From assembly GCF_002075885.1 (NCBI RefSeq), contig NZ_MDET01000019.1, positions 1 to 64,000 on the forward strand: DNA of 64,000 bases, written 5' to 3'. Both the position numbers and the translations under genes were made by a program. The notes beneath the pieces were generated by a model that did not search any database, had not been told where the DNA came from, and was given only the letters and a program-made list of their open reading frames with translations. Below, in pieces: positions 54,740-57,551 of this stretch. The DNA comes from Manganibacter manganicus (GTDB lineage Bacteria > Pseudomonadota > Alphaproteobacteria > Rhizobiales > Rhizobiaceae). Each line of letters begins with the position of its first letter. Within the stretch, counting starts at the first letter, position 1.

Positions 54740-55165
54740 ATGGACAATACAGAAACGACCCCGCGAAACAGCGACACGCTGATCGAGCTGACCGCAGATG
54801 TGGTTGCGGCCTATGTCAGCAACAATCCGGTTCCGGTTGGTGAATTGCCCAATCTGATCGCCGATATTCATGCCGCGCTCGGGCGGGTCGGCACGCCGGC
54901 CGAGCAGCCGGCCGCGGAAAAGCAGAAGCCGGCCGTCAATCCGAAGCGCTCGGTGCACGACGATTATATCGTGTGCCTGGAGGACGGGAAGAAGTTCAAA
55001 TCGCTCAAGCGTCACCTGATGACGCATTATGATCTGACCCCTGAACAGTACCGCGAAAAATGGGGCCTGGACGCCAATTATCCGATGGTCGCGCCTAATT
55101 ATGCGGCAGCGCGCTCCAAGCTGGCCAAGAAGATGGGGCTGGGTCGCAAGCCGAAGGCTCGCTGA
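54740..55165 (+). CDS. mucR: MucR/Ros-family zinc-finger transcriptional regulator
   Basis: Product of 141 residues. The N-terminal oligomerisation half ([34 protein letters not shown]) is followed by the Ros finger [33 protein letters not shown]. The zinc ligands would be Cys79, Asp82, His92 and His96: Asp replaces the second Cys of Agrobacterium Ros, as known for MucR. The C-terminal [22 protein letters not shown] is conserved. These proteins act as H-NS-like repressors of exopolysaccharide, motility and cell-cycle genes in rhizobia and Brucella. Targets in this window could include the polysaccharide and pilus genes, an inference only. Confidence 0.96.
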
Positions 55166-55195: not shown

Positions 55196-55546
55196 TTATG
55201 GCTGTGAGTCGCGGCGCCTTCGGGCGCCGTTTGGTTTTGCGGCCCGCGCGGCGTTCCGCTTCGGTGGAATGCCGGCCGCTTCGCGCAGCATATCCAGCAC
55301 CTGTTTCAGCGCGATGTGACGGTTGAGATCATAGGTCCAGTGACGGCGCATGCCGCGCAGCCGCTCTCGCTCCAGCGCGCGCGTGATGCGGCCCATCAAT
55401 TGCAGCCGCACCGTTGGCGCAGCCGCCAGCGCATGGGCGAGATCGACGCCGCATGCCAGTTGCAGTGCCGCGATCCTCGTCGCCATTGCGGCCTCGGCTT
55501 GTTTGCGCGCCCCGAAGTTCTTTGCATCCTGCTGGAATTGTCCCAT
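55196..55546 (-). CDS. Small basic conserved-type protein of unknown function
   Basis: Product of 116 residues, all helical in appearance: MGQFQQDAKNFGARKQAEA, LQLACGVDLAHALAAAPTV, then RITRALERERLRGMRRHWTYDLNRHIALKQVLDMLREAAG and a very basic tail (RNAARAAKPNGARRRRD). No family was recognised with certainty. It ends 30 bp from the mucR stop, and its last codons contain the mucR terminator hairpin. ATG 55546 is chosen; the frame extends to 55594. RNA or DNA contact is suggested by the basic residues only. Confidence 0.6.
   Translation of the reverse strand: MGQFQQDAKNFGARKQAEAAMATRIAALQLACGVDLAHALAAAPTVRLQLMGRITRALERERLRGMRRHWTYDLNRHIALKQVLDMLREAAGIPPKRNAARAAKPNGARRRRDSQP
55212..55238 (+). 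terminator. Rho-independent terminator of mucR, inside the convergent gene
   Basis: CGGCGCC (55212-55218), loop TTCG, GGCGCCG (55223-55229), then TTTGGTTTT. The 7-bp G+C-rich stem with a UUCG loop and a T-rich tail lies 46 bp behind the mucR stop. It overlaps the 3' coding end of the minus-strand gene at 55196-55546. Confidence 0.75.
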
Positions 55547-55658
55547 CGAACTGGTCTCCCTTGGTGAGGCCGCCATGATCTGGGCAGTCGGCAAGGGTGT
55601 GGATAAGAAGCGTCGATCCTGGTTGGTGAGAAATCAAAATTTTCTTTTTGGAACAAGG

Positions 55659-55672: not shown

Positions 55673-55755
55673 AAAAATAAATAATGTTCCGCTTTTGTTC
55701 ACAGTTGCGGGCCAGTCGAGTATAAGGAACATATTCCTATCGAGGAGAATGTTTC

Positions 55756-56172
55756 GTGCCACCTGCCACAGCCATCAGCGAAGACCCACCCAATCACGAA
55801 GATCACGCCGAAACGGCGTCGACTGCCCTCCGGCCTGCGCCGAAGCGGCGCGACGAGATGGCGCTCGATAGCTGTGAATGCCTGATCGATATCGGCTCGG
55901 CGTTGTTTTCCCTGCCGAGCAAAGATCTGCGCAAGGCCGGCCGCAGCGCCCTGCCGGTGTCGCGGGTGCGCCAGATCATGATGTATGTCGCCCATGTCGT
56001 GCTGAAACTGTCGATGATGGAGGTCGGCCGAGGCTTCGGGCGCGACCGCACTACGGTGCTGCATGCCTGCCAGATGATCGAGGACATGCGTGAGGACCCG
56101 GATTTCGATCAACTCGTGCTGGTGGTGGAACGCGTCGCGCACGCCGCCTTCCGCGACCGGATCGGTCTTTGA
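55756..56172 (+). CDS. Stand-alone DnaA domain-IV-like DNA-binding protein
   Basis: Product of 138 residues. Residues 1-35 are polar and probably disordered. Residues about 65-115 match the C-terminal DNA-binding domain of the replication initiator DnaA: SRVRQIMMYVAHVVLKLSMMEVGRGF followed by GRDRTTVLHACQMIEDMR, the DnaA signature GGRDHTTVLHA with small changes. No AAA+ domain is present. It should bind DnaA-box-like DNA, and could compete with or mark DnaA sites, but no function is known to me. It overlaps the ribosome site of the next gene (12 bp between stop and start), so it forms a unit with the DUF6456 protein. Confidence 0.8.
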   Translation: MPPATAISEDPPNHEDHAETASTALRPAPKRRDEMALDSCECLIDIGSALFSLPSKDLRKAGRSALPVSRVRQIMMYVAHVVLKLSMMEVGRGFGRDRTTVLHACQMIEDMREDPDFDQLVLVVERVAHAAFRDRIGL

Positions 56173-56183
56173 GGAGGAGCATG

Positions 56184-56969
56184 ATGGCGATTGACGACAC
56201 TGCCATCCGTGTATTGCGCTTCCTGGCCAAAGGGACGGCAACGGTGCAATCGGCGGCCATGCGCGGCAGGGTTCTGCTGGTCTCGGCCGAGCGCGGGGCG
56301 CTCGCGCTGCCCGGCGATCTGCTTGACCGGCTGGTGCGAGAGAAACTGCTGGTTCGCTCAAGACTGGAGGTCGCGCTGTCGCCGGAAGGTACGATGCTGG
56401 CCGCGCGCCTTGCGACGCACCGCCGGCAGGCCGGGGAGGTCGGGGTGGTGAGCGTCGAGATGGATGGGAAGCCGGTCGCGGCGCTCGCCAATCTTTTGGA
56501 ATCGCCGCTGGCGCAACTTGTCCGGCGCAGGACGAAGACCGGTGCGCCGTTTTTAACTGCACGCGAATTCGAGGCCGGCGAGCGCCTGCGCGCCGATTAT
56601 ACGCGCGGCAACATCATGCCGCGTATGGGCGCCAATTGGATCGCCAGCGTGGCATCCGGCAAAAGGGCAGGTGGCGACACGGCGGAATTGACGGATGTCG
56701 CGCTTGCCGCGCGTCTGCGTGTCGAAAAGGCGATTGCCGCCGTCGGTCCCGAACTTTCGGGCGTGCTGATCGACATTTGCTGCTTCCTGAAAGGCATGGA
56801 ACTGGTCGAGACGGAGCGCGGCTGGCCGGTGCGTTCGGCTAAGATCGTCCTGAAGACGGCACTGGCGGCTCTTGCACGGCATTATTTTCCACAGGATTCC
56901 GTGCATGGTTCGCGGCCCGCCACCCTGCATTGGGGCACGGAGGACTATCGGCCGAAGCTGCGTGCATAA
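56184..56969 (+). CDS. DUF6456-domain protein
   Basis: Product of 261 residues. The N-terminal 85 residues look like a winged-helix fold (AIRVLRFLAKGTATVQSAA, LPGDLLDRLVREKLLV, EVALSPEGTMLAARLAT). The C-terminal half has the DUF6456 features ESPLAQLVRRRTKTGAPFLTAREFEAGERLRADYTRGNIMPRMGANW, then ALAARLRVEKAIAAVGPELSGVLIDICCFLKGMELVE and RGWPVRSAKIVLKTALAALARHY. No enzyme motif is visible. GAGGAGG at 56171-56177 favours ATG 56184 over ATG 56181. It is coupled to the DnaA-IV-like gene upstream and converges on sufE with a 9-bp gap. Confidence 0.8.
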   Translation: MAIDDTAIRVLRFLAKGTATVQSAAMRGRVLLVSAERGALALPGDLLDRLVREKLLVRSRLEVALSPEGTMLAARLATHRRQAGEVGVVSVEMDGKPVAALANLLESPLAQLVRRRTKTGAPFLTAREFEAGERLRADYTRGNIMPRMGANWIASVASGKRAGGDTAELTDVALAARLRVEKAIAAVGPELSGVLIDICCFLKGMELVETERGWPVRSAKIVLKTALAALARHYFPQDSVHGSRPATLHWGTEDYRPKLRA

Positions 56970-56978
56970 GGTGGATGC

Positions 56979-57407
56979 TCAGGCGTTCTGCCGGAGCGCC
57001 ATTCCCGCATCATGGCGGATGCGCCTGACCATGGAGCGCAGCCCGTTCGAGCGCTGTGACGACAAATGCTCGTCGAGCCCAAGCGCTTTCAGCGTGTCTT
57101 CTGCATCGGTGGCGACGATCTCGCTGGCTTTGCGGCCGGAATAAAGTGCGAGCACGATGGCGACAAGGCCGCGCACGATATGCGCATCCGAATCGCCCTG
57201 GAACGTCACGATCGGGTCCGGCCCGTCACCATATTCGGTTATCAGCCAGACCTGACTGACGCAGCCCGATACCTTGTTTGCCGGCGTGCGCCCGGTATCC
57301 GGGAATTCGGACAGATCTTCACCTAGTTCGATGACGTAGCGATAGCGGTCTTCCCACTCGTCGAGCAGGGCGAAGTCGTCGCAAATTGATTGAATGGTCG
57401 GGCTCAT
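56979..57407 (-). CDS. sufE: SufE-family cysteine desulfuration protein
   Basis: Product of 142 residues. DDFALLDEWEDRYRYVIELGEDL is the SufE start, and NKVSGCVSQVWLI carries the sulfur-accepting Cys49. FQGDSDAHIVRGLVAIVLALYSGRKASEI and SSQRSNGLRSMVRRIR complete the family pattern. SufE takes sulfane sulfur from SufS for iron-sulfur cluster assembly. The other suf genes are not here. ATG 57407 is preferred because MSPTIQSICDDF is the typical beginning. Confidence 0.93.
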   Translation of the reverse strand: MSPTIQSICDDFALLDEWEDRYRYVIELGEDLSEFPDTGRTPANKVSGCVSQVWLITEYGDGPDPIVTFQGDSDAHIVRGLVAIVLALYSGRKASEIVATDAEDTLKALGLDEHLSSQRSNGLRSMVRRIRHDAGMALRQNA

Positions 57408-57551
57408 ACGCCGCATATAGGCGCAGCGCGTGCCGGCGTCACGGAAAAAGCCCGCCGCCTTACGGAAAAAGAAGGCACCGCAGGTATCGAGAGGGCAGGC
57501 AGGCTGCGGCGACGCTCAAAGCCGATGCGCACCGGTGGAGATGGGAAGACC

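Follow-up and report, generated by a model that had tools for sequence, protein, structure and literature searches.

Predicted SOS and RogA-type control of a split GafA switch, gafYZ, near a gene transfer agent cluster in Manganibacter manganicus

Two adjacent genes of Manganibacter manganicus, one for a DnaA domain-IV-only protein and one for a DUF6456 protein, almost certainly encode GafY and GafZ, the split form of GafA, a switch dedicated to a gene transfer agent (GTA) of the RcGTA type. This identification was drawn from protein family and fold, the published layout of split gafA loci, a nearby GTA cluster and the co-occurrence of the pair with GTA genes. In the Mesorhizobium/Aminobacter/Pseudaminobacter clade, gafYZ probably belongs directly to the SOS regulon, where LexA and a RogA-like repressor would form a double lock of fixed geometry and DNA damage would help to license GTA release. 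Family membership, the GafY fold, the co-occurrence and linkage with GTA genes and the promoter elements were obtained here. Positions are those of the window, the whole stretch of 64,000 nucleotides that was analysed (C19:1-64000), which belongs to a genome of 4.84 Mb in 60 contigs (G000). The features are collected in Table 1.

Table 1. Features of the gafYZ locus in the window and the RogA-like gene elsewhere in the genome.
Feature	Coordinates	Strand	Basis and remarks
mucR, conserved upstream neighbour	54740..55165	+	PF05443, E 4.9e-53
orfx, small divergent neighbour	55196..55546	-	Conserved in relatives; DUF6477 match in 7 of 17 aligned relatives
SOS (LexA) box GTTCCGCTTTTGTTC, GTTC-N7-GTTC, predicted	55686..55700	+	Overlaps predicted -35; conserved in relatives
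-35 TTCACA, predicted	55698..55703	+	17-bp spacer to -10; sequence and 27 loci
-10 TATAAG, predicted	55721..55726	+	Sequence; TATAAG in the 27 listed loci
RogA-type operator TAAGGAACATATTCCTAT, predicted	55723..55740	+	Over -10; core GGAA-N4-TTCC at 55726-55737
Ribosome-binding sequence GAGGAG of gafY	55742..55747	+	Read from sequence
gafY homologue, 138 aa, GTG start	55756..56172	+	ORF, Pfam, PDB sequence matches, AlphaFold, Foldseek
gafZ homologue, DUF6456 protein, 262 aa	56181..56969	+	Pfam PF20057, E 2.5e-46
sufE, conserved downstream neighbour	56979..57416	-	Pfam and loci of relatives
RogA-like Peptidase S24 protein, 220 aa	L232:1441-2103 (contig C56)	-	Pfam; distinct from LexA

The original prediction described the first product as carrying the DnaA signature without an AAA+ domain, and this was confirmed. 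Bac_DnaA_C (PF08299, residues 48-108, E 2.9e-14) was the sole Pfam match at thresholds up to E 1, the signature GRDRTTVLHACQMIEDMR was present, and neither the translation nor Pfam showed an AAA+ ATPase domain. NCBIfam returned hypothetical-protein models and DnaA, all under their cut-offs, while the matches among PDB sequences were DnaA DNA-binding domains, with 1j1v at the top (E 1.4e-8). The counterpart of the signature in the DnaA chain 1j1v is GRDHTTVLHAC; comparison of GRDHTT with GRDRTT in the recognition helix of GafY indicates that the DnaA His is replaced by Arg, and the RDRTT recognition motif was kept in 62 of the 73 scored GafY homologues. The modelling check proposed with the prediction was also run. 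The AlphaFold model reached a mean pLDDT of 85.6, with block means of 92-98 for residues 31-130, and the top 11 Foldseek rows were all DnaA structures (TM-score 0.80, on the target, for 1j1v), placing the protein with DnaA domain IV.

The start codon of gafZ is ATG at 56181 or 56184, which is 8 or 11 bp past the gafY stop, and TGAGGAGGAG spans the stop and the gap, supporting the tight coupling that had been proposed for the two genes. A winged-helix-like N-terminus had also been proposed for the DUF6456 protein. The helix-strand order of its first ~80 residues is compatible with a winged helix; the Foldseek search with its model, however, returned nothing at E<=0.001, a MarR-type chain ranking second at E 0.26, and the missing structural match counts against the GafYZ reading.

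The gene neighbourhood was compared in 81 loci of the order, taken from 83 genomes with DUF6456 (the window and 80 fetched loci, without G008, which is in two pieces, and without the distant match G037), some stretches ending early at contig ends. The co-conservation proposed for the pair was found: gafY lies within 2.4 kb upstream of DUF6456 in 74 of the 81 loci, in two of them in one frame with gafZ. Within the stretches, mucR was present in 57 (56 upstream), sufE in 70 and a small divergent ORF in 44. Among 36 close loci (35 named and the window), gafY was found in 34, mucR in 33, sufE in 34 and the divergent ORF in all 36 of the stretches examined. Judged by GafZ (best identity 64 %), the host falls close to Mesorhizobium, Aminobacter and Pseudaminobacter. 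According to Sherlock and Fogg (2022, PMC9638019), gafA is divided over two genes in Hyphomicrobiales, one of them small and DnaA-like, flanked by sufE on the downstream side and by mucR or a different regulator on the upstream side, and the full-text literature matches for DUF6456 were all on gene transfer agents. Neither the type of the pair nor its function is thus new, the mucR-gafYZ-sufE layout in Hyphomicrobiales being already published, and the earlier remark that no characterised function was known for it was wrong. The standing of mucR is that of a conserved neighbour only.

A single small divergent ORF, orfx, lies between mucR and gafY. Its own sequence had no Pfam match; the best E value among its DUF6477-matching relatives was 8.2e-8. 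At L263, a locus with a fused gafA-like gene, the gene divergent from it clearly encodes a DUF6477 protein (E 7.9e-35), which a direct search with the orfx profile missed. In R. capsulatus, rcc01866 is divergent and adjoins gafA, and its mutant is reported to give immature particles; we infer that rcc01866 is a DUF6477 protein. Distant DUF6456 proteins of about 27-56 bits were seen at nine further loci (L279-L287) and as second copies in G200, G229 and G244. The fetched stretches of those nine loci showed no gafY, and these distant proteins may be another regulator class.

The co-occurrence of DUF6456 with GTA genes was then counted. Among 101 genomes of the order, DUF6456 was present in 83 and GTA_TIM in 75; by eye, 71 had both, 12 DUF6456 only, 4 GTA only and 14 neither. 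The 151 genomes of the family comprised 109 with both, 15 with DUF6456 only, 4 with GTA_TIM only and 23 with neither, an association with a Fisher odds ratio of 41.8 (p 1.9e-13, kinship uncorrected); the 15 and the 4 weigh against the GafYZ reading. In 77 of the 109 family genomes with both, the two share a contig, at most 100 kb apart in 76, and in 71 of the 77 the GTA lies downstream of DUF6456 on the same strand. The distance to GTA_TIM had a median of 23.1 kb and was mostly 20-40 kb. Such linkage of switch and cluster offers a quick route to functional or decaying GTAs.

Two putative operators were recognized in the gafY promoter (Table 1). Across 27 listed loci, the -35 hexamers were TTCACA, TTCACG, TTCACT or TTCCCG. 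Of the 34 close loci with gafY, 22, one of which is the window, have GTTC-N7-GTTC at 60-320 bp ahead of the gafY domain, whereas 0.006 per locus was expected from the remainder of the same loci. The family set, made of the 30 best-scoring loci minus one without gafY, gave 16 of 29; the two sets may share species, L188 and L256 being an example of identical promoters. The start of the SOS box precedes that of the palindrome by 37 bp in 26 of 27 pairs and by 34 bp in one, as counted with a strict pattern that picked up 27 loci. The window promoter falls outside this pattern by one extra base between the -10 and the palindrome half, and its spacing, read directly, is 37 bp. The same SOS box was found directly upstream of host lexA and also upstream of DinB-like and ImuA-like genes, which were named by reading their translations.

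Several counts stand against direct LexA control of gafYZ. The exact box is missing in 12 of the 34 close loci, and order-wide it is rare, being confined to the window, L038 and L060 among 74 loci (about half a locus expected by chance). No GTTC-N7-GTTC within one mismatch was found in the ~1.45 kb upstream of host recA, which had served as a control. In the host genome the box occurs 153 times and its reversed control 100 times; with a box so common, single copies elsewhere mean little. It is possible, though we consider it unlikely, that GTTC-N7-GTTC at the gafY promoter is no LexA operator and simply results from a TTCACA -35 together with a T-rich tract: the box overlaps the -35, its spacer ends in Ts, recA has no box, and related promoters may have inherited it in common. 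The distal GTTC, however, lies outside the -35 hexamer and is kept nonetheless in the close and family sets given above, the box-bearing loci span GafZ identities down to about 50 %, and the box recurs at lexA and the DinB-like and ImuA-like genes. Direct control by LexA in this clade is the reading that we favour. L038 and L060 lie outside the family, and only L060 has the box-palindrome distance of the window. The exact TTATCCCC motif was absent from all three order loci with the SOS box, and the presence of the box without it in L038 and L060 suggests that the inputs of the switch were swapped more than once.

For the second operator, the exact Caulobacter RogA consensus GGAA-N4-TTCC was found at 4 of 74 gafY loci with 0.4 expected. 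By itself this core is not rare in the window (2 against 1.1 expected). De novo dyad counting in the gafY upstream regions gave a wider palindrome, ATAGGWANNNNTWCCTAT, and the core GGWA-N4-TWCC was exact in 19 of the 74 loci, chance matches included. A palindrome of the same type, AACAGGTATTTTTTCCTGTT, is present at the RogA-like gene, its core starting 29 bp ahead of the start codon, suggesting autoregulation. This S24 protein is likely the RogA of the host; Pfam showed no DNA-binding domain in it.

An RcGTA-type cluster lies on the contig of the window, 9.3 kb downstream of gafYZ on the same strand and 2.3 kb beyond the window edge, extending from C19:66287 to the contig end at 79274 (within L003). 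Pfam identified capsid, connector, head completion, tail completion, tail tube, GTA-gp10, DUF2460, baseplate hub, NlpC and GTA_TIM. The cluster begins with a small ORF in the small-terminase position, terminase-like and portal-like ORFs, DUF6107, an ORF in the protease position, capsid and connector. From there it continues with head completion, tail completion, tail tube, GTA-gp10, a further ORF, DUF2460, baseplate hub, NlpC and a partial gp15. Position and reading, and not Pfam, were the basis for placing the terminase, portal, small-terminase, protease and unnamed ORFs, and the GTA_TIM gene is the one we take to be gp15.

This gp15 appears to be interrupted by an insertion sequence. Its first part ends before a DDE transposase at the end of C19 (L003:17074-19275, equal to C19:77073-79274), and its C-terminal part, followed by Rcc01698_C, lies by a transposase at the end of contig C58 (L004:10587-13324). 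The two contig ends have 532 identical bases in common, and positions 116-195 of the GTA_TIM profile (80 positions) are missing from both pieces. The split, the transposase and the profile gap together indicate that host gp15 is apparently broken, barring a collapse of element copies in the assembly, and the target of the switch may therefore be defunct in this strain; this too counts against the GafYZ reading. An apparently broken gp15 beside a still open gafYZ, together with the family and order genomes that have DUF6456 and no GTA_TIM (15/151 and 12/101), would fit a pair co-opted for a host regulon beyond the GTA and retained after GTA loss. We regard this as doubtful, given that at least one such case, a congener genome (G069, locus L114), lacks GTA_TIM and has only a distant DUF6456-like protein whose neighbours include none of gafY, mucR and sufE, that some GTA-less cases are incomplete assemblies (G208 68 %, G242 83 % and G152 88 % complete), and that recent loss fits the rest equally.

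Sites for GafY itself were also sought. Gozzi and colleagues could not predict a GafY motif (PMC9632790), and a single element, at a single promoter, was delimited by Tran and Le (PMC11150451). The motif TTATCCCC was found at 49 of 74 order gafY promoters and in 3 of 861 background windows. It scored lower in the 11 loci with non-RDRTT recognition residues than in the 62 canonical ones (Mann-Whitney p 0.004, kinship uncorrected; one locus gapped). Because of this lower score and its likeness to half a DnaA box, TTATCCCC is proposed as a candidate GafY box; the clade of the window does not carry it. Near the -35, the strongly conserved motif AACTTATCCCCG, which has the look of a half DnaA box, was observed in 49 of 74 order gafY promoters (for example L112, L110 and L074). 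It is missing from the window promoter, where the SOS box occupies its place.

At GTA promoters, exact TTATCCCC copies were found in 2 of 35. Among the 23 that could be scored, 3 exceeded the 99th background percentile and the set as a whole stood above background (p 2e-5), an excess that may reflect AT-richness. A GafY site was thus not convincingly found at GTA promoters with this candidate motif, a further point against the GafYZ reading. From dyad counting at the GTA promoters emerged TAGGA-N10-TGACA, which 11 of 31 promoters have, compared with 2 of 532 background windows. ATAGGAA-N8-TTGACAG, at 11 or more of 14 positions upstream of the terminase, was present in 17 loci among the 33 scanned of 40, a count with no chance level behind it, from which an L115 match inside a gene was excluded. 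The host GTA promoter reads ATAGGAA-N7-TTGACA, one base shorter in spacing, and was hence missed by the N8 scan. ATAGGAA ahead of TTGACA was seen at L003:6155-6197 and at L118, L121, L123, L132 and L141, and these promoters have a palindrome (AGCGTnACGCT or alike) between -35 and -10, CACCGTAACGGTG in the host. That this palindrome sits where Caulobacter has the GafZ element is suggestive only.

DnaA boxes were examined in view of the original prediction that the pair could titrate or occupy such boxes near the origin or cell-cycle promoters. A perfect box, TTATCCACA, lies at 55598-55606 on the minus strand, ~150 bp upstream of gafY. The window holds 5 boxes against a shuffle mean of 1.5, 3 of 100 shuffles reaching 5, and TTWTNCACA occurs upstream of gafY in 6 of 74 order loci with about 1 expected. 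Titration was rejected, as too few gafY loci have a box to account for the pair. The predicted role is also not favoured since the pair tracks GTA genes and matches GafY and GafZ, the ChIP targets of the Caulobacter pair being GTA-related promoters and gafYZ itself (PMC9632790, PMC11150451). These boxes, the DnaA-IV fold and the former publication of GafY as HdaB with a replication role (cited in PMC9632790) would favour a mainly replicative GafY, which occupies or competes for DnaA boxes or blocks the regulatory inactivation of DnaA with GafZ as an accessory, yet this is very improbable given that 68 of the 74 upstream regions have no box, that the box is perfect in the window alone and the one at 55598 is not common to most relatives, that the homologues mostly carry RDRTT in place of the RDHTT of 1j1v DnaA, that the pair co-occurs and is linked with GTA genes, and that Gozzi and colleagues reassign the replication phenotype to GTA production (PMC9632790).

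For the GafYZ switch, published work on Caulobacter supplies a mechanism. There, GafY binds and activates together with IHF and GafZ is an antiterminator (Gozzi 2022, PMC9632790; Tran and Le 2024, PMC11150451), antitermination involving RNA polymerase and Nus factors (PMC11150451), and RogA represses gafYZ at GGAA-N4-TTCC repeats (PMC9632790, PMC11150451). We infer that the biochemical roles of GafY and GafZ carry over from Caulobacter and Rhodobacter to the host. LexA at the SOS box on the -35 and the RogA-like repressor at the palindrome on the -10 would hold gafYZ off, until DNA damage, as one input, or another signal releases it. GafY would then bind target promoters through its DnaA domain-IV-like fold and aid sigma70 RNA polymerase (with IHF in Caulobacter), and GafZ would travel with the polymerase, giving readthrough of terminators in the GTA cluster. 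Transcription of the nearby cluster would follow, a step carried over from Caulobacter.

Cells that release GTAs die. The trigger of the switch therefore decides when GTAs are worth making. A repair role has been reported for the Caulobacter GTA (PMC9632790), and a direct LexA site at gafYZ, if true, would be a simple DNA-damage input for rhizobial relatives in agreement with it. In R. capsulatus, LexA is described as acting via cckA and not at gafA, and a LexA site has been predicted at the GTA cluster of Dinoroseobacter. A search of open-licence PMC papers found no LexA site at gafYZ of Hyphomicrobiales. In the passages found, neither the predicted control by LexA and RogA in this clade nor the tight family-wide linkage between switch and cluster was stated.

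Compared with known systems, the locus shares with the split gafA loci of PMC9638019 the order mucR, DnaA-like gene, DUF6456 gene and sufE; the passages on those loci give no promoter analysis, whereas promoter elements are predicted here. GafA of R. capsulatus (rcc01865) has the same two domain kinds, activates RcGTA and has the divergent neighbour rcc01866. It differs in being one fused protein, activated via CtrA and with a quorum-sensing regulator at its promoter. Caulobacter crescentus GafY and GafZ (CCNA_01111/01112) share the adjacent DnaA-IV-like and DUF6456 genes, the RogA-type GGAA-N4-TTCC operator at the gafYZ promoter and a GTA in the genome. The Caulobacter GTA has another place on the chromosome than gafYZ (locus numbers 02861-02880 versus 01111/01112), whereas that of the host is 9.3 kb away, and the passages on Caulobacter describe RogA as the repressor and mention no SOS box at the promoter, whereas in the host a predicted SOS box overlaps the -35.
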